This document shows positions 4,630 through 17,743 of a DNA stretch of 19,248 nucleotides, piece after piece. The stretch lies in NCBI GenBank assembly GCA_003833135.1, contig QZLH01000030.1, positions 217,502 to 236,749 of the forward strand, written 5' to 3'. The translations under genes and the position numbers were made by a program. The notes beneath the pieces were generated by a model. The model was not told the origin of the DNA and made no database searches. It saw nothing but the letters and a program-made list of their open reading frames with translations. This DNA comes from Oehlia diaphana (taxonomy: Eukaryota; Glomeromycota; Glomeromycetes; Glomerales; Glomeraceae). How positions within the stretch are numbered: position 1 is the stretch's first letter; each line of letters begins with the position of its first letter.

Positions 4630-5139
4630 GCCAGAAATACTTTTTGTAATGACAATAAAAATATGATGTATCTCAATCCATATACAAAATATTATAGTAT
4701 GACTTTGAGTTGTGAATGTCATTACAAATATTGTAATGTAATATACGTAAATAAAACTTATAAATGGTGTATAACGTGTCAAATAAATCGCTTGAAAGAA
4801 AATATTGATTGTTTCATTCAAAAAAAGCAGCTAAATATCAGACATCCGACTGATATAGTAATTGAATGGATACCATACAATCAGTTTAATGATATTGAAG
4901 AAATAAATAATAATTCAATTACAATACATTTAGCAAAATGGAAAGATGGTCCTTTATTAGATATAATAAAGTCACAAAAAAATATGAAAGAAATCCAAAT
5001 AAAGCGGTTGTTTTACAATATACAACATATAAATGACGAGGTATATAATTTCATAAGAAGATATGGTCCATTAGATTATGATAAGGATACAAAGAAATAT
5101 GTAATAGTATATCAAAATAAAGTAAATGCAATTTAGAGG
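4630..5139 (+). pseudogene. Truncated kinase 5' fragment, copy 2
   Basis: An open frame from 4630 (first ATG 4663, 157 codons, stop 5137) follows a possible acceptor TTTTAATAG. Numbered from that ATG, it has a cysteine-ribbon (C17, C19, C24, C36, C39), the family lead-in I-E-W-I-P-Y-N-Q-F (67-75) and A-K-W-K-D-G-P-L (91-98). The glycine loop between them is destroyed (N-N-N-S-I-T-I-H). No catalytic loop, DFG or C-lobe follows: the frame stops just after the N-lobe. The tail repeats a D-Y-D-K-D-T-K-K-Y segment. As an ORF it might still be translated as a small zinc-ribbon protein, but a relic is more likely. Confidence 0.7.
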
Positions 5140-5223: not shown

Positions 5224-6591
5224 TTTATTTTATTTTATTTTATTTTATTTCAGAGAGGAGTAACCAATGAACAAACATAATAGGAGTTAACAACTACAAG
5301 TAGCAAAAAACTAATCTATTAGGGGTACTGTGGCTATTAATCCCGTATAACAGGACCTCACCCTCCAGGCGGAACTACTCTAAAGTCATGGACACTTTCT
5401 TGCATATGATGAAGCATTGGAGATGTTTGGCGTCAAATTTGTAAAACAAAATATGACAGTAAAACTACGCCACTGATAAAGATGAAATTAAAAAGAAAAA
5501 TAACAAATCATCTAAAAATAAAAGTTAGTAAATTATCAGGAGCTATATATAATTAACTGTCAGGTATTTATGCCCTTAGGGCTTATATATGAAATAAAAT
5601 ATTATTAAAAATATAATTATGATATATAGAAAGATCGTTATCTAAAGTTGATAACCATGGTAAGTTGTGAAGAAAATTACTTGTGGTTAAATAAATCCAC
5701 ATTATATTATTTTCTACATGTCGTCTGGATTAATTTAAAGGGCATCGATATTCATTGATCTTAAGATTTAATTGTCTTGATTGATGTTGCGTGTTGTTTG
5801 TGTGATGTTGGCGGTATTGTGTGAATGATTTTTTTGTAATATTGTGTTCTTTTTTATATTGTTTCCATGATACAGCTCTGAATTTCCATATACTTTCGTA
5901 TATATCTTTATGAAGGTCATATAAAAATTTCATTATTAATCATTTTCTTGACTCCTTACTTATTGAAGCAGCTTTAAATGGATAAGTGCTATAGGTGTAT
6001 AATTCATAAGTAAGCAGTATAGGTCAGGAATGTCTTTAATTTGTTGAGGTGGTCTTTTCGTCCATTTGAATATAGAACATCTCATAATCGAGTCGGAGTA
6101 TAACGTGTACAATGAGTTAGATTCTGATGTAATGATCGTCTCGTAATGTGTTTTAAATATCAGTGTTAGAATTTCTAGCACTTTTGGACAATTCCATAGA
6201 TGGTCATTAGTTTCTTTCTCATTTTTACATATAAAACATGTATCAAAATTGTTGAGTAACTCTGGATAATTCCTATTTAGGATATCTAGGGTAGGTAAGG
6301 TATTCTAGAGCATTTGATTCTCCATGCTATATGTTTTGATAATTGTTGATTAGTTGGATTAGTGAACGAATTATATTTGAACCACATTTAAGTAAATTCC
6401 CAATCTATTCGATTATGAAGGGCATAATCTTTTAAGAGTAGAAGGTTGTTGTGTGATAGATGATGTTCGAAATATTGAAAATTAATTATTCTTTTAGTCG
6501 TTTTTTGAATATTTTGGTCAATGATATTGGAGTTGTTAAATATGAGGTGACAAGTTTGATTTCTAAGATGTTGGACGTTAATATTAAAGTG
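5224..6591 (-). mobile_element. 5'-truncated LINE-type retrotransposon
   Basis: The insertion is bounded by a perfect 16-bp direct repeat, GCCGGGTAGCCTGGTT, at 5208-5223 and 6592-6607. On the - strand it ends in a tail of about five AAAAT repeats (5222-5250) lying next to the repeat, as expected for target-primed insertion of a non-LTR element. The 5' end at 6591 starts inside the reverse-transcriptase polyprotein, so it is a dead-on-arrival copy. The unrepeated target reads straight through from 5207 to 6608. Confidence 0.85.
5730..6590 (-). pseudogene. C-terminal end of LINE reverse transcriptase polyprotein, broken
   Basis: On the - strand, pieces in different frames give I-I-D-Q-N-I-Q-K, I-D-W-E-F, W-R-I-K-C and L-P-T-L-D-I-L. 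A C-x-x-C finger follows (C-F-I-C, then H-L-W-N-C-P, near 6240-6185) and then K-E-H-N-I-T-K-K-S-F near 5850. This order (thumb or connection region, zinc knuckle, K-rich NITKK tail) is what I know from AM-fungal LINE proteins. Stops or frame changes near 6392, 6300 and 5965 break it. It ends at a stop at 5730, followed by about 480 nt of 3' untranslated sequence before the tail. Confidence 0.7.
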
Positions 6592-10830: not shown

Positions 10831-13800
10831 CTAAACCGTTACTAAATTTTTTAATTCTTTTTTTTCTTGGTTTAATTCTAATTTCAATTCATTCAAATTT
10901 TTTCTCAATGAATTTATATCTTCTGCCATCATATTAGAATTTAATTGAATTCTGGTTCCTTTCTGAGAATTAATAGCAAATTTAAAAATTTTGTATTTAT
11001 CAATATTAAAAGAATTCAACTTAAGAATGGTTTCAATCATGAAGCTAACTTCCAACTCTTTATTTTCCCGAACAATTTTTTTTAAGGAATAATAATTTTT
11101 GTTCAACTTTAATAATCCATCATTATATTTTACAAGAATACTTTGAAATTCTTTAGTATATTTGTCAATCAATTTAGATGTTTTCATATCTCTGACAGAA
11201 CCAATAGTATTTCTTTCCTTATCAATAGAACTTTCTAGATGATTACAGCAATTTTGTAATTTTTTAATAGCTTCTTCTCGTAGAGTTAGGAAATCACCTT
11301 TAACTTTCAGAAAATTACTGACTTGATTGAAAACCTGTTTTTTCCTATTGGCATTATAAGAAGCTGAAGTTCTTGATAATTCTTGTTGGAGTTCATTCAT
11401 CTCCTTTTGTTTAGCTTCTTTTTCTTTATGAATTTTCTTAGTACTTTTTCCACTAGTTAATTTATTTAATAATTCCTTTTCAATTTCACTCAATTCTTTT
11501 CTTTTATCTTGTAGCTTTTTAATACGCTTTTGATCAAGGTTAATTAGTCTTTGTTCTAATTCATTTATATTGTCTTCTTTAATCTGTAAAGCTTGAGTTA
11601 ATTGCATTTTGATTTGTTCTTCAGTGATCAATTTTTGTTCCAATTGAGAAATTTCTTTTTCTAACTTGGTTTGCAATTCAGTATTAAGATTTTGATCCTG
11701 TAAAAGATCACTCACCATATTTTGCAACATAACTCTTTCTTGTTCTATTTGTTCATAATTGACTTGGAACTGATTTAATCTATTTTCTAATTGCTCTTTT
11801 TGTTCAATTAAGCTTTCTTTGTGAGATTTTAATTCTTGAATATTAGCTTCTGTTTGAGCTAATTTTTCTTGTAATTTAAAGTCTTCTTGCTTTAACTGGC
11901 TGATTTGATCCTGAACTTGCTGGTTAATTATTTTATTTTGTTCCAACTGTTCAGCTAAATTGGTTAAATTGTCTTGATTTTCATTTTGCAGGTCAATAAT
12001 TTGAGTTCGTAAAATATTTTCTTTTTCTGCAAATTCTTTAATTTGTTTAGCTGAGTTAAGCCTCAAATTTTGATTATTTTGTTCAAATTTAAAATTCCTT
12101 TGTTGTAAATCAAATAATTCATTTTCTAACAGAAGATTTTCTTCTTCTATTTGAGAATAACTTTGTTGTAAATTAACTAACTCATTTTGAGAATTTTGAT
12201 AATAAGTTTCAGCAATCTCTTCTAATTTAAGATTTTCTTTTTCTATTTGAATCAATTGATTTTTAAGTTGTGAATTTCTTTGTTGTAAATTAACTATCTC
12301 ATTTTGAGAATTTTGATAATAAATTTCAGCAATCTTTTTTAACTTAAAATTTTCTTCCTCTATTTGCTTATAGCCAATTTGTAATTGATTTAATTGATTT
12401 TTAAATTGATCTTGCTGAGATTTTAATTCTTGAATAACGGGTTCTGTTTGGACTGATTTATCTTTTAGATTATTTTTTTCTTTTAACTGACTGATTTGTT
12501 TTAACTGTTCAGTCAGCTTATTACTATTTAAAGCTTGCTTTTCATTTTGCAGATTTGTAATTTGGGTTTGTAAAGTACTTTCTTTTTTTGTAAATTCTTC
12601 ATTTTGTAAAGTTAAGTTTTGTTGCAAATTAACTGATTCCATTTGAATATTTTGTAATTTATTTTGAGAACTTGAACTTTGATATTTTTGTTTTAATTCA
12701 AGAAATCCTTGAGAACCTTGTAAAATTAGAATTTCATTTAATTCTTTACTAGTAAAATCATGTAAATGACTTGTATAATATACTTTTGGATGAGATTTTA
12801 CAATAAGGTTATTATGCTTAATTGGTGCATTTATAAATTCCATAATATTGCTTTTTAATTTTTCATTAATATCTTCAATTTTTTTGCCAAAAGGACAAAA
12901 AATCCAATTTTCAATAATGTTTAAAACTTCTTTAGAAGATGGCCTTTTTAATGGATCTTCATCCCAGCATTTTTTCATTAAATCTATATAACATTGTGGA
13001 GTATTTTCAATAATTTCAGGACGTTCACCTTTACAAATACTTAAAGCGAGTTTAAGATCATGTGTTTTATCATTAAATGGTGGAATTTCAGATGTAAATT
13101 CCCACATAATTATAGAAAAACTATACACATCACTAGCTTGAGTATAAGGTTGACCTCTTAAAATTTCTGGTGCTATAAATGGTAAAACTCCATAGATATT
13201 GTTTTCTTTTAAAAAAGATTTTTCAAGTTGATATAATCCTAAATAATCACTAATAAAAATTCCATATATATTTTCTTCATATTTGTTACATAAAATATTA
13301 CCATCATGAAAGTTATAATGAATAAGGCCTTTTCCATGAATATCATTAAGTCCCTCAATAATTTGATATAAATAAAATAATTTTTGTTTCCAATTTTTTG
13401 TTATTTCTGCTAAACATCTTTTTAAACTACCCTCATTTGCATACTTCATTATTAATACATAACTCAAAGTATTTGGATCTTTTGTAAATCCATATATTTT
13501 AATAATTTCATTTGAACTAACAATTTTCCACTATAAAAAACAATATTTAATTAATTAGTATAAATAAATTATAATATTTAATAAAAAAGAAATTTTAGTC
13601 ATACTTCGTTTAAGAAATCATTTAAACTTTCATCTGAATTATTAAGATAATCAAAATATCTAAGAACTACTTCAATATTTTTATATATAGCTTTATATAT
13701 AGTTCCAAATCCTCCTTTATCAATATATTTAATATTTTCAAATTTATCATAAGGAATCCATTTTAATTTATTTTTAGAAATAAATTGATTTATAATTTCA

Positions 13801-16800
13801 CTTCCACTAGTACCAAATCTTTAAATATAAATAAAATTATATTAAAAATTAAGATTCAAAATAAAAATTACAATTAAAAATTTAAATATTAAACAATATT
13901 AATTATACTTACTCTAAATATAATTATAAGATTTTAATATAATAAATAATTAATTTAAATTTTAAATAAATAGTACATAATAACTTATAACTTACCAACT
14001 AAAAAGATTTAATTATTATGAGTAAATATTATAATAATTAAATATAAAAAATATAGGATTATTATAATTAAAATATGCAATACTTACAGGCTAAATAATT
14101 TTTTAAATAATTTAGTTAGTTTAAATTATATGTAAATATTATGTAAATATAATAAATTACTTACGATCTAAATATTTGAATAATTTTATAAATAAAGAAT
14201 CTAATTAGTTTCAAAAATATGTAAATATTACATAAATATAATAGAATTAAATAAATAACATACTCTCTATATTATTAAATAAATAATTTTTTAAATAAAG
14301 AAGTTAGTTAGTTTAAATTTTATGCAAATATTATATAAATATAATAGAATTAAATAAATAATATACTTCCTATATTATTAAATAAATAATTTTTAAATAA
14401 AGAATTTAGTTAGTTTGAATCATATATAAATATTATATAAATATAATAAATTACTTACGATCTATAATTATTTAAATAAAGAATTTAGTTAGTATAAATA
14501 TTATATAAATACAATAGAATCAAATAAATAACTTATAACTTACCAACTAAAAGAAATTACAAAATAAATTTTTAAACAAAGATTTAGTTAGTTTAAATTA
14601 TATATATATATTAAAATAAATATAATAAAATTAAATAAATAACATACTCCCTATATTATTAAAGAAATTATTTTTAATAAAAAATTAGTTAGTTTAAATT
14701 ATATATAAATATTATATAAATATAATAGAATTAAATAAATAACATACTCTCTACATTATTAAATAAATAATTTTTTAAATAAAGAATTTAGTTAGTTTAA
14801 ATTATATATAAATATTATTTAAAAATATAATAAATTACTTACGATCTAAAATATTTGAATAATTTTTTAAATAAAGAATTTAGTTAGTTTAAATTATATA
14901 TGAATATTATATAAATATAATAGAATTAAATAAATAACATACTCCCTATATTATTAAACAAAAAATTTAATTAGTTTAAATTATTATATAAAGAATTTTT
15001 CTAACTATCACCGGGGATGATGATCACCGGTGACTGAAATTATGATGATCGACCAGCATTAAAAAATATAGTGCCGGTAAAAAAATTGATAATTCCGGCC
15101 AACGGTGATGATCACCCCCGGTGATTTGAAATAGAATTAAATAAATAACATACTTCCTATATTATTAAAGAAATAATTTTTTAAACAATTTAGTTAGTTT
15201 AAATTATATGTAAATATTATATAAATATAATAGAATTAAATAAATAATTTATAACTTACCAACTAAAAGAAATCACAAAATAATTTTTTAGTTAGTTTAA
15301 ACTATATGTAAAGATTATATAGAATTAATTAATTAACTTATAGCTTACCAACTAAAAGAAATTACAATATAATTTTTTAAATAAAGAATTTAGTTAGTTT
15401 AAATTATATGCATATGTTTTATAAATATAATAAATCACTTACAATCTAAAATATTTGAATAATTTTTTAAATAAAGAATTTAGTTAGTTTAAATTATATG
15501 TAAATATTATATAAATAAAATAAGTTACTTACGATCTAAATATTTGAATAATTTTTTAAAATAAAGAATTTAGTTAGTTTAAATTATATGCAATATTTTA
15601 TAAATATAATAAATTACTTACAATCTAAAATATTTGAATAATTTTTTAAATAAAGAATTTTAGTTAGTTTAAATTATATGCAATTATTATATAAATATAA
15701 TAGAATTAAATAAATAACATACTCCCTATATTATTAAATAAATAATTTTTTAAATAAAGAATTTAGTTAGTTTATATTATATGCAAACATTAGGCCATTC
15801 CAAATTAATTTTTGGTTTAACCTCCTCCCCCCCCCCTATTTTGAAAATTTTAAAATAATTTAAACACATATGATCACATATGTTTAAAGCATCCCCTCTC
15901 TTTTCTGAAATTGGGTGTACCGAATATTTCTGATTTTACTGAAAACTTCCAGAAATTTTGATATGTTTAAATACCATGTTTGTTTAAGTTATTTCCTCCC
16001 CCCTCAAATTTTTCACCCAGAAAGGACGTTAACTAATTATTAGTTTGGAATGGCCTTATAAACATTATATAAATATAATAGAATTAAATAAATAACATAC
16101 TCCCTATTATTAAATAAATAATTTTTTAAATAAGAATTTAGTTAGTCTAAATTATATGCAAAATACTATATAAATATAATAAATTACTTACGATCTAAAA
16201 TATTTGAATAATTTTAAATAAAGAATTTAGATAGTTTAAATTATATGTAAATATTATATAAATATAATAAACTACTTACGATCTAAAATATTAGAATAAT
16301 TTTTTAAATAAAGAATTTAAATTATATATAAATATTATACAAATATAATAAATTACTTACGATCTAAAATATTTGAATAATTATTTAAATAAAGAATTTA
16401 GTTAATTTAAATTATATATAAATATTATATAAATATAATAGAATTAAATAAATATTTTATAACTTACCAACTAAAATAAATTAAAAATAATTTTTAAATA
16501 AATAAATTAGTTAGTTTAAATTATATCTAAATATTATATAAATATAATAAATTAATTAAATAACATACTCCCTATATTATAAATAAAAAATTTTTTAAAT
16601 AAAGAATTTAGTTAGTTCAAATTATATGTAAATATTATATAAGTTTAATAGAATTAAATAAATAACATACTCCCTATATTATTAAATAATAATTTTTAAA
16701 TAAAGAATTTAGTTAGTTTAAATTATATGTAAATGTTATCTAAATATAATAATAAATTATTTACGATCTAAAATATTTGAATAATTTTTAAATAAAGAAT

Positions 16801-17743
16801 TTATTTAGTTTAAATTATATATAATTATTATATAAATATAATGAATTGCTTACGATCTAAAATATTTGAATAATTTTTTAAATAAAGAATTTAGTTAGTC
16901 TAAATTATATGTAAATATTATATAAGTATAATAAATTACTTACGATCTAAAATATTAGAATAATTTTTTAAATAAAGAATTTAGTTAGTTTGAATTATAT
17001 GTAAATATTATATAAATATAATAGAATTAATAAATAACTTATAACTTACCAACTAAAAGAAATTACAAAATAATTTTTTAAATAAAGAATTTAGTTAGTT
17101 TAAATCATATGTAAATATTATATAAATATAATAGTTAACATACACCCTGTAACATTATTAAATTATTAATAATTATAAAGTAAAGTAATTATAATCAATT
17201 ATTATAATTGTATATAAAAATTAAGTATATACAATAACTTACAATCTAATTTAAATAAATAATATTATTAGTTTAAATTATACATAAATACTTTTAAATC
17301 AATATAAAATTAAATACTTACTTTCTATAATATTAGTAATTATTAAACAATTATAAATAGAAAATTTAGTTATTTAAAATATCATGTAAAATACAATAAA
17401 AAAAAATAGCTGTTAACTTACCAACTATAATAATATTAATAATAAAATTAATATTTGGTTATATAAAATAATAGAAGTAAGTAATTTAATCATTCCGATT
17501 ATAAGATAACCTATTACTTACGAGCTAATATAGTAATTTTTAGAAATAGTTTAAAATTTAAATTATATGTTTAGAATTTACAAACTGCTAAATAATTTTC
17601 TTACTTTTATCTTCCTCAATTTTTGAAACTAGTTTCATTATATTGCAAATTTGGTTTGAAAAAAATTTTAGAGAAATTTTACTTTGTATTAGATATCTAT
17701 ATTCATGTTATATGCTTTTACCTTTATCGTTACTTTGAGCCAT
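10831..17743 (-). CDS. Predicted pseudokinase with long coiled coil, 39 exons including a microexon array
   Basis: Proposed exons on the - strand: 17743-17722 (starts ATG, MAQSNDK), 17628-17605, 34 three-nt exons, one 1-nt exon at 13913, 13818-13605 and 13530-10831 (ends TAG). The total is 1020 codons in one frame, with 38 GT-AG introns. Residues 16-50 come from the microexons. The kinase domain spans about residues 70-332: lead-in WIPYDKF (70-76), intact glycine loop DKGGFGTIY (83-91), APE (241-243), DVYSF (255-259) and the C-lobe arginine at 317. Key catalytic residues are altered: the beta-3 lysine is R103 (VVLR), the HRD aspartate is N194 (HYN), and DFG reads DYLG (216-219). This suggests a pseudokinase that scaffolds or binds partners (inference). 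A coiled coil runs about 390-840, rich in Q/E/L/N, followed by a lysine-rich helical tail at 841-1020. The last two exons are secure. The first two exons and the array are predicted from splice signals and frame alone. The kinase fold is TKL-like, as in the large Rhizophagus families. Confidence 0.72.
12130..12365 (-). repeat. Internal 39-residue duplication in the coiled coil
   Basis: Two adjacent copies of a 117-nt segment inside the last exon both encode the pattern Y-Y-Q-N-S-Q-N-E-(I/L)-V-N-L-Q-Q. Corresponding points fall at 12181 and 12298. A looser repeat of the Q-T-E-x-x-I-Q-E-L-K-S type also recurs further along. This shows that the coiled coil grew by in-frame duplication. Confidence 0.8.
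13605..13818 (-). CDS. Kinase N-lobe exon of the pseudokinase gene
   Basis: This 214-nt exon encodes residues 51-121: FGTSGSEIINQFI, then the lead-in K-W-I-P-Y-D-K-F and the glycine loop, ending D-F-L-N-E. Its donor GTATGA at 13604 opens a 74-nt intron (13531-13604) closed by TTATAG. The next exon continues W-K-I-V-S-S-N-E-I-I-K-I-Y-G-F-T-K-D-P, the usual continuation in this family, so the junction is well supported. The exon contains no in-frame ATG, so the gene must start further upstream. Two possible acceptors, AAAG before 13818 and CTAG before 13806, both need an incoming phase of 2. The 3-nt array together with the 1-nt exon supplies exactly that phase. Confidence 0.85.
15007..15125. 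mobile_element. 119-bp MITE inside a microexon-array intron
   Basis: Terminal inverted repeats ATCACCGGGG (15007-15016) and CCCCGGTGAT (15116-15125), with further GATGATCACCG repeats inside. It is much more GC-rich than the surrounding array. It lies in the intron between microexons at 15154 and 14943 and leaves both splice sites intact. I see no clear target-site duplication. Confidence 0.75.
15791..16058. mobile_element. About 267-bp MITE inside a microexon-array intron
   Basis: Ends are inverted repeats: GGCCATTCCAAATTAAT from 15793, and ATTAGTTTGGAATGGCC up to 16055. The host sequence AAACATTA occurs on both sides, consistent with a target-site duplication of about 6-8 bp. The element carries C-rich runs and a segment (GATTTTACTGAAAACTTCC) that also occurs near 3.5 kb. 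It sits in the intron between microexons at 16101 and 15723 without damaging donor, branch site or acceptor. Confidence 0.8.
17605..17743 (-). CDS. Predicted first two exons of the pseudokinase gene
   Basis: ATG at 17743-17741 opens MAQSNDK plus one base, followed by donor GGTAAAAG at 17721. Reading on without splicing hits TAA within four codons. The 93-nt intron ends at AAACTAG (17629). The second exon of 24 nt gives VSKIEEDK plus one base, followed by donor GTAAGA at 17604. The outgoing phase is therefore 1, exactly what the array and the downstream kinase frame require. The short charged N-terminus is not a recognised domain. This is the weakest part of the model because both exons are very short and rest on splice consensus and phase only; another start further upstream is possible. 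Confidence 0.5.

Follow-up and report, generated by a model that had tools for sequence, protein, structure and literature searches.

Arrays of three-nucleotide exons predicted to encode, codon by codon, a segment in front of kinase domains in Oehlia diaphana

In a stretch of 19,248 nucleotides (nt) from Oehlia diaphana (contig QZLH01000030.1, positions 217,502 to 236,749; hereafter the window), the minus strand carries a protein-kinase gene with a row of 34 units between its first exons and the kinase domain, every one exactly 3 nt long and framed by splice signals. We consider it very probable, judging from the sequence, that these units are spliced successively and translated, together with a 1-nt exon, into a 35-residue segment that precedes the kinase domain. 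The same layout is found at further kinase loci of this genome, and the units of these arrays avoid stop codons across the intervening introns in one phase and one order only, as would be expected if they were read.

The 34 units lie between exon 2 (17605) and the kinase N-lobe exon (13818), and each consists of an acceptor AG, 3 nt and a donor (Table 1, where they appear in coding order and are followed by the single A of the terminal exon). An earlier note on this DNA had described them as an unbroken series with no unit of 2 or 4 nt, and this is borne out by a scan for AG-N{n}-GT over 17760-13600 of the minus strand, which found no match at n = 2 or n = 4 and 37 matches at n = 3, comprising the 34 units, two overlapping frames and one outlier, TTT at 17586. 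A comparable scan of both strands of the remaining window returned two matches at n = 3 and five at n = 2, and outside the array the 3-nt spacing is no commoner than other lengths. Within the array, GTAAGT stands 3 nt behind AG 20 times, whereas 500 dinucleotide shuffles give 0.018 on average, and a wider donor definition gives 32 occurrences against 0.048; these shuffles, together with the exon-length controls described below, rule out a chance origin of the units. The donors are of the proposed GTAAGT or GTATGT type in 32 units and are weak in the other two (GTAAAT and GTATAT), while the branch-like CTAAC that had been described for the intron body is not general: of the 36 introns that lie from 17604 to 13819, 22 contain its strict form. 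These introns measure 74 to 104 nt, except for two (375 and 208 nt) with inverted-repeat insertions. We observed that both insertions leave the splice signals undamaged.

The frame of the window model closes as had been claimed: the ATG exon ends in phase 1, the array adds 35 codons without a stop, and the 1-nt exon brings the reading into the frame of the kinase exon. The exon lengths add up to the predicted 363 nt from the ATG to the end of the N-lobe exon (22 for exon 1, 24 for exon 2, 102 for the units, 1, and 214 for the N-lobe exon), open throughout. The earlier note had called an open run of 35 codons weak evidence; this holds for the window alone, and it is the paralogs that make the evidence for phase 1 strong.

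To place the array in its genomic context, the window's own genome (108.8 Mb in 1672 contigs) was searched with the window kinase, and the stretches upstream of 28 further kinase matches were taken together with the window as a set of 29 loci. All of them have at least 3 units, 22 have at least 10, and 20 have at least 20, the largest holding 51, so that 22 of the 29 loci are arrays of 10 to 51 units. The exons were called with a chain caller that uses separate acceptor and donor matrices and leaves the exon length free between 0 and 40 nt; its matrices were trained on strict 3-nt units, but acceptor and donor are scored apart from length. Among the 776 exons called, 720 have 3 nt and 26 have 1 nt, and every other length occurs at most twice. 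In the window, the caller recovered 32 of the 34 units, and the other two, whose donors are weak, had to be filled in. An end-to-end scan of the real strand gave 720 exons of 3 nt out of 793, whereas the controls yielded 12 of 75 for the reverse complement, 1 of 42 for the reversed sequence, and 2 of 61, 1 of 62 and 1 of 62 for three Markov resamples. Filling gaps, in which only 3-nt units were sought, added 27 units and brought the total to 747.

The preference for 3 nt extends to the whole genome. The strict pattern GTAAGT-N(65-95)-TAG-NNN-GTAAGT has 1294 matches, against 13 for the reversed pattern that served as the control, while the corresponding patterns with a 2-nt or a 4-nt exon have 8 and 9 matches, against 14 and 19 for their controls. 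Given that the 29 loci hold 372 of the 1294 strict matches and 747 units, the genome total extrapolates to about 2600 such units.

A second array, on contig C38 (loci L037 and L038; L037 spans 72400-77400), comprises thirty 3-nt units and a single 6-nt unit, and its introns are quite different from those of the window. By eye, it lies behind the kinase domain of another kinase and ahead of two short exons; since the window array stands in front of its kinase domain, the layout occurs on either side. Phase 1 is open through this array (no stops against 1.7 expected, P 0.09, with the 6-nt unit left out) and closes to a stop codon with the flanking exons as we read them. Two more groups of matches are found on C38, at 79860-80373 and 87919-90345. 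Elsewhere, at C19:113027-113440 on the minus strand, two strict matches have yet another intron sequence (GTAAGTATCATTTGTC...) and may represent a third array type.

Whether the units are translated can be asked from the order in which they stand. In phase 1, a unit ending in T makes a stop when the next unit begins with AA, AG or GA. Joined consecutively, the 714 adjacent pairs of units produce 2 such stops, against 30.6 +/- 4.2 when the order is shuffled inside the arrays (1000 shuffles of 718 pairs each), and no shuffle came as low as the observed value. Phase 2 gives 118 stops over the adjacent pairs. For the 182 units that end in T and have a called neighbour, the next unit begins with AA, AG or GA in 2 cases, with AT in 49, with GG in 49 and with TT in 53. 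The effect persists when pairs repeated inside a locus and the conserved pair ATT-GGT are taken out (2 of 151 against 109 of 446, Fisher p 2.5e-13) and when each pair type is counted only once (2 of 75 against 69 of 260, p 7e-7). If the last base of a unit is combined with the dinucleotide that opens the next, and only combinations with an expectation of at least 3 are considered, T-AG, T-AA and T-GA show the strongest depletion of all. The units thus behave as if translated in order, consecutively and in phase 1, which supports the codon-by-codon reading put forward in the earlier note. Selection across introns is what splicing would cause, and it is from this selection that we infer splicing.

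These results bear on two other explanations. The first sees in the region an AT-rich tandem repeat without coding function, expanded from one intron, whose splice-like motifs were inherited by copying and which is removed as a single intron or not transcribed at all. The units are indeed tandem repeats that share intron sequence, in a region of 10 to 20% GC, but copying would not produce an avoidance of AA, AG and GA that spans 94-nt introns and is confined to a single phase and a single order. In a non-coding minisatellite, the unit would be free of coding constraint. Moreover, the AG-3 nt-GT arrangement is kept even where the introns have diverged, as in the outer introns of the window array (mean identity to the remaining ones 0.64-0.68), and the second array combines different introns with an equal exon length of 3 nt. 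We regard this explanation as highly improbable, and the stop avoidance led us to reject both a whole-array intron and a plain repeat. The second explanation is that the arrays serve chiefly to generate alternative transcripts, since 3-nt exons could be left out in any combination without loss of frame, so that many isoforms would result; a similar proposal has been made for the micro-exon genes (MEGs) of schistosomes. Unit lengths are frame-neutral and some donors are weak, which speaks for this view, but joins that skip units create stops at the shuffled rate (30 of 689 for skip-one and 28 of 660 for skip-two; reversed pairs give 35 of 714). Selection would then have kept only the full consecutive joining free of stops, and exon skipping as the main use, unprotected from stops as it is, is unsupported and seems to us unlikely.

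The sequences on either side of the arrays point to the same phase. Exon 1 is detected at 12 of the 29 loci (0 to 4 mismatches of 22), and a public paralog, P0026, begins MAQSNDKV, to be compared with MAQSNDK|G in the window; the phase of exon 2 is also kept in the paralogs read by eye. A 1-nt exon (25 times A, twice G) lies at most 115 nt from the kinase exon, in the frame that phase 1 requires, at 27 of the 29 loci; in the stretches examined, none was found for L018 and L026. The script used for this often reports an AG inside the kinase exon, which leaves the frame unchanged, and in 25 loci the acceptor AG|A TTT GG, or one close to it, can be read directly. Splice signals on both sides and a frame kept in phase 1 through the array are what is expected of microexons, spliced exons shorter than about 30 nt, and the avoidance of stops across introns gives indirect evidence that the units enter the mature mRNA. 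The arrays also have recurrent ends: the first called unit is CTC at 14 of the 29 loci, often followed by TTG or TTA, a variable unit, ATT and GGT, and the last called unit is TTG at 22. Translated in phase 1, the 22 larger arrays give segments rich in R, N, L, D, F, Y and W; these often start with xLENW, in which x is set by exon 2 (T in the window), or with variants such as xLNNW and xLSDW, and they often finish with FEFG. Tryptic peptides predicted from the phase-1 model include TLENWFDHHR, NYHFVGR and NPFEFGTSGSEIINQFISK.

Public gene models suggest a third explanation, in which the units are read in phase 0, each triplet being a codon, and the window segment is hydrophobic (LLKIGLIIIGGLIIIGG...). 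Judged from public proteins, the gene belongs to an arbuscular mycorrhizal fungus. The protein P0002, a kinase-like domain-containing protein of Rhizophagus diaphanus (isolate MUCL 43196, listed by the NCBI taxonomy under Oehlia diaphana, Glomeromycota), shows 100% identity across 63% of the query, and within the window's genome it fits best at the window locus. Besides P0002, 7 of 120 public proteins have SKFGKS or GKFGKS preceded by a low-complexity string, for example P0039 (LLMLMIGIDLWGIIIIIRIRGRG...LSKFGKSG) and P0100 (GMILIGIILIIIIIVRLRLGLRLLSKFGKSG) of R. irregularis. The phase-0 peptide resembles a membrane helix, which made it attractive at first, and only 3 of the 747 units are stops in this phase, against about 23 expected from column frequencies. 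However, this scarcity is part of a scarcity of all TAx (2 of 747) and TGx (9 of 747) units, TAC (1) and TAT (0) being as rare as TAG (1) and TAA (0). None of the units starts with GC. The rarity of TA and TG starts fits a constraint imposed by splicing, as AG-TRN-GT would make a competing donor GTRNGT that overlaps the acceptor.

Other evidence also speaks against phase 0. In the window, exons 1 and 2 deliver phase 1, the 1-nt exon suits phase 1 at nearly all loci, and the order-dependent avoidance of stops belongs to phase 1. Under strict rules, P0002 could not be threaded along the window; when every GT or GC is accepted as a donor, the first residues still fail, and the longest suffix that threads, ILIGGLIIIGGIGILLIGLIPL, takes array units from unit 5 on in phase 0, with non-array letters before them. 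As threaded, P0002 omits units and the N-lobe exon. Phase-0 models would presumably obtain their SK through AGTAA|GTAT instead of A|GTAAGT. We find a phase-0 reading scarcely credible, and it was rejected on the phase of exons 1 and 2, the 1-nt exon and the order test. The public models of these kinases, some of which appear to read the arrays in phase 0 while many begin at the kinase exon, are probably wrong at the N-terminus. The protein strings of R. irregularis look like arrays read in phase 0, and it is probable that arrays exist in this species too.

Several observations nevertheless weigh against the view that the units are uniform single-codon exons read in phase 1. The public models of relatives just mentioned, P0002 included, favour phase 0 on their face. 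FEFG and LENW are absent from all 120 public proteins examined of 556 matches, and a protein search with the phase-1 model of L029 gave 4 candidates, none at E 10 or better. The two phase-1 stops lie in L009, for which no exon 1 was found, and in L023, in which exon 1 is present, and L036 has a stop inside the kinase exon. Seven loci hold only 3 to 8 units; L025 and L026 are cut by a contig end, and the others are short or poorly called. With respect to length, 30 of the 776 called exons have other sizes, some of which contain a 3-nt unit while others look spurious, the C38 array includes its 6-nt unit, and six of the 12 exons of 3 nt in the reverse-complement control stand in short-intron chains. 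Two of the eight 2-nt matches (C46:205935-206028 and C170:3627-3723) have array-like introns; for this reason, rare 2-nt units may exist inside arrays, as exceptions to the 3-nt rule or as decayed units. Finally, strict CTAAC is present in only 394 of 675 introns.

These 675 introns, namely those of 60 to 130 nt at the 29 loci, have a mean length of 94 nt and little bias in length modulo 3 (237, 234 and 204); GTAAGT occurs in 557, TAG in 637 and a CTAA[CT] site in 514. Near-identical introns are found within and between arrays, which allows the exons to be compared with their surroundings. Pairs of modules were chosen by their intron flanks alone, and 24 held-out windows of 3 nt in the introns served as the control. 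At a flank difference of at most 5%, exon letters differ by 28.9% in the 82 pairs within loci and by 39.2% in the 96 pairs between loci, while the held-out windows differ on average by 6.3% and 8.6%. At 10%, the exons differ by 37.6% (297 pairs) and 38.3% (721 pairs), 4.1 and 3.6 times as much as the intron windows. Among single windows, the highest values are 22.5-27.5% within and 14.4-19.6% between loci, and they belong to windows at the outer edges of the ungapped flanks. In 21 pairs of mutual nearest neighbours at 3% or less, flanks differ by 1.3% and the three exon positions by 9.5, 19 and 33%, with identical triplets in 11 of the pairs. As the pairs overlap, no p value is attached to these sets. 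Exon letters thus differ about four times more than held-out intron windows, the opposite of what is seen in normal genes. The cause of this fast change could be selection, local mutation or homogenisation of the introns, and positive selection on amino acids as the sole cause is left undecided by the finding that the third codon position (base 2 of the unit) varies as much as or more than base 1.

The arrangement of the triplets indicates how the arrays may have arisen. Triplets still follow the cluster to which their flanks belong (TTG in 15 of 18 members of one cluster, with others mainly of the ATC or GGA type), and for this reason the modules were probably copied together with their codon and changed afterwards. 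An alternative that concerns only the origin, and that is compatible with successive splicing and translation, is that introners invaded an existing coding stretch, one at each codon, which would make the triplets old and the introns new. Near-identical flanks around different triplets would agree with this, and introner-like elements exist in fungi (PMC4457414). It is harder to reconcile with triplets that follow the flank cluster, with a block of units duplicated in order in the window (TTG-ATC-ATC-ATC-GGA-GGA is present twice, inside a tandem period of 493 nt) or with unit numbers that vary among paralogs from 3 to 51, and we give it a small though appreciable chance.

If the units are spliced successively and translated, each intron of about 94 nt would be recognised on its own, by intron definition; the introns, with GTAAGT, CTAA[CT] and TAG, suit this mode, for which exon length is not needed. 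Because an acceptor and the next donor only 3 nt apart could not plausibly be bound simultaneously, intron removal would proceed one by one and add a codon at each step. The modules of intron plus codon would multiply by tandem duplication, as the repeated block in the window suggests, and arrays would grow or shrink by whole codons without a frameshift, giving each kinase paralog its own variable N-terminal linker. As to the role of the segment, a variable linker or a recognition tag is our guess. A broader proposal, to which we give about an even chance, is a codon-cassette system in which hypervariable parts of kinases are encoded one codon per exon and the intron-plus-codon module is the unit of evolution, copied, lost and reordered with the frame kept; the contrast in variability between exons and introns would then reflect targeted or strongly selected diversification of single residues, perhaps as a private recognition tag for each paralog.

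Such arrays would break the assumption that an exon needs a certain length in order to be defined by the splicing machinery, and would do so dozens of times in series and at locus after locus. If they are spliced as predicted, each message would require more than 30 consecutive intron removals with 3-nt steps, and retention of a single intron would nearly always bring an in-frame stop (671 of 675 introns). Intron definition and the order and fidelity of splicing would become directly testable in these arrays, and introns would be a device for the frame-safe evolution of single residues, with the exons as the variable and the introns as the conserved parts.

Ultra-short exons flanked by ordinary introns have been described before. 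Examples are a 1-nt exon in Arabidopsis APC11 (PMC4674806), a 3-nt exon in Drosophila homothorax (PMC7392893) and a 1-nt exon in Fusarium CYP621A, which a 2026 abstract calls the second example of the smallest exon and the first for a fungal gene (PMC12940212). The terminal 1-nt exon of the window, needed for phase, is of this type. In what these reports present, there is one microexon per gene, whereas here dozens stand in series in a layout common to many loci. In schistosome MEGs, many symmetrical, that is frame-neutral, small exons of 6 to 36 nt follow one another and form much of the coding sequence. Serial frame-neutral exons are common to both systems, but here they have the size of a single codon, occur in kinases, contribute 35 of the 1020 residues of the window model and form joins that are not protected from stops when units are skipped. 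Family expansion, fast evolution and products in secretions or glands are features of MEGs in the abstract of one report (PMC4350168).

Introners and introner-like elements are many near-identical introns in one genome (PMC9860276, PMC4457414). They insert into many genes, whereas the introns considered here lie head to tail, 3 nt apart, and were apparently copied with the codon as modules. At the ratchet points of recursive splicing, the next 5′ splice site directly adjoins the 3′ splice site, and 0 nt are left. Stepwise removal would be alike in the arrays, but each step would leave 3 nt that are read, and AG abutting GT (n = 0) is absent from the window array. The bicycle genes of gall aphids have many small exons, which, in contrast to those described here, are not codon-sized. 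They are a fast-evolving insect family of putative gall effectors recognised by gene structure (PMC9168663). Among the papers listed by searches of the open-licence PMC literature, a body of work outside which most subscription journals lie, no title or abstract opening reports an array of codon-sized exons. The earlier note had called an array of 34 new for its size, and while the arrays are real, that size was an understatement, given up to 51 units at one locus and matches on many contigs.

Table 1. Features of the kinase gene and of its microexon array in the window (positions counted from the first letter of the window).
Feature	Position	Strand	Basis or remark
Exon 1, ATG exon, 22 nt, ends in phase 1 (MAQSNDK|G)	17722..17743	-	kept with 0-4 mismatches of 22 at 12 of 29 loci
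Exon 2, 24 nt, phase 1 in and out (VSKIEEDK)	17605..17628	-	gene-model reading
Microexon 1, CTC	17522..17524	-	AG-N3-GT scan
Microexon 2, TTG	17422..17424	-	AG-N3-GT scan
Microexon 3, AAA	17322..17324	-	AG-N3-GT scan
Microexon 4, ATT	17243..17245	-	AG-N3-GT scan
Microexon 5, GGT	17144..17146	-	AG-N3-GT scan
Microexon 6, TTG	17050..17052	-	AG-N3-GT scan
Microexon 7, ATC	16944..16946	-	AG-N3-GT scan
Microexon 8, ATC	16854..16856	-	AG-N3-GT scan
Microexon 9, ATC, weak donor GTAAAT	16765..16767	-	AG-N3-GT scan
Microexon 10, GGA	16671..16673	-	AG-N3-GT scan
Microexon 11, GGA	16569..16571	-	AG-N3-GT scan
Microexon 12, TTG	16468..16470	-	AG-N3-GT scan
Microexon 13, ATC	16361..16363	-	AG-N3-GT scan
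Microexon 14, ATC	16280..16282	-	AG-N3-GT scan
Microexon 15, ATC	16192..16194	-	AG-N3-GT scan
Microexon 16, GGA	16101..16103	-	AG-N3-GT scan
Insertion with terminal inverted repeats in the intron separating microexons 16 and 17	15789..16059	.	29-nt arms, 83% complementary
Microexon 17, GGA	15723..15725	-	AG-N3-GT scan
Microexon 18, ATT	15622..15624	-	AG-N3-GT scan
Microexon 19, ATC	15533..15535	-	AG-N3-GT scan
Microexon 20, ATT	15443..15445	-	AG-N3-GT scan
Microexon 21, TTG	15349..15351	-	AG-N3-GT scan
Microexon 22, TTG	15260..15262	-	AG-N3-GT scan
Microexon 23, GAA	15154..15156	-	AG-N3-GT scan
Inverted-repeat insertion, intron between microexons 23 and 24; arms extend into the host intron	14984..15148	.	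60-nt arms, 72% complementary
Microexon 24, GGA	14943..14945	-	AG-N3-GT scan
Microexon 25, ATC	14843..14845	-	AG-N3-GT scan
Microexon 26, AGA	14748..14750	-	AG-N3-GT scan
Microexon 27, GGA	14648..14650	-	AG-N3-GT scan
Microexon 28, TTG	14544..14546	-	AG-N3-GT scan
Microexon 29, ATC	14459..14461	-	AG-N3-GT scan
Microexon 30, GAA, weak donor GTATAT	14367..14369	-	AG-N3-GT scan
Microexon 31, AGA	14264..14266	-	AG-N3-GT scan
Microexon 32, ATC	14165..14167	-	AG-N3-GT scan
Microexon 33, CCT	14088..14090	-	AG-N3-GT scan
Microexon 34, TTG	13996..13998	-	AG-N3-GT scan
Terminal 1-nt exon A, phase 1 to phase 2	13913..13913	-	scan; 1-nt exon at this place at 27 of 29 loci
Kinase N-lobe exon, 214 nt (A|TTT GGT ACT AGT...; FGTSGSEIINQF...GGFGTIYKA)	13605..13818	-	frame reading
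Kinase C-lobe and coiled-coil-like tail exon, 899 codons, stop at end	10831..13530	-	open reading frame and Pfam

The kinase gene as a whole extends over 17743-10831 of the minus strand and matches the Pfam families PF00069 (E 7.4e-28) and PF07714 (E 1e-26). By eye, its tail is long and coiled-coil-like, and the N-terminus of the model, MAQSNDKVSKIEEDK, has no hydrophobic run. Elsewhere in the window, at 4630-5136 on the plus strand, an open frame with a Cys-rich stretch followed by IEWIPYNQFNDIEEI has no Pfam match and is possibly a fragment of a second kinase gene; we take it to resemble the N-terminus of another kinase of the family. A further open frame, at 5960-6304 on the minus strand and likewise without a Pfam match, contains CFICKNEKETNDHLWNC, which we take to be reminiscent of the tail of a retrotransposon protein.

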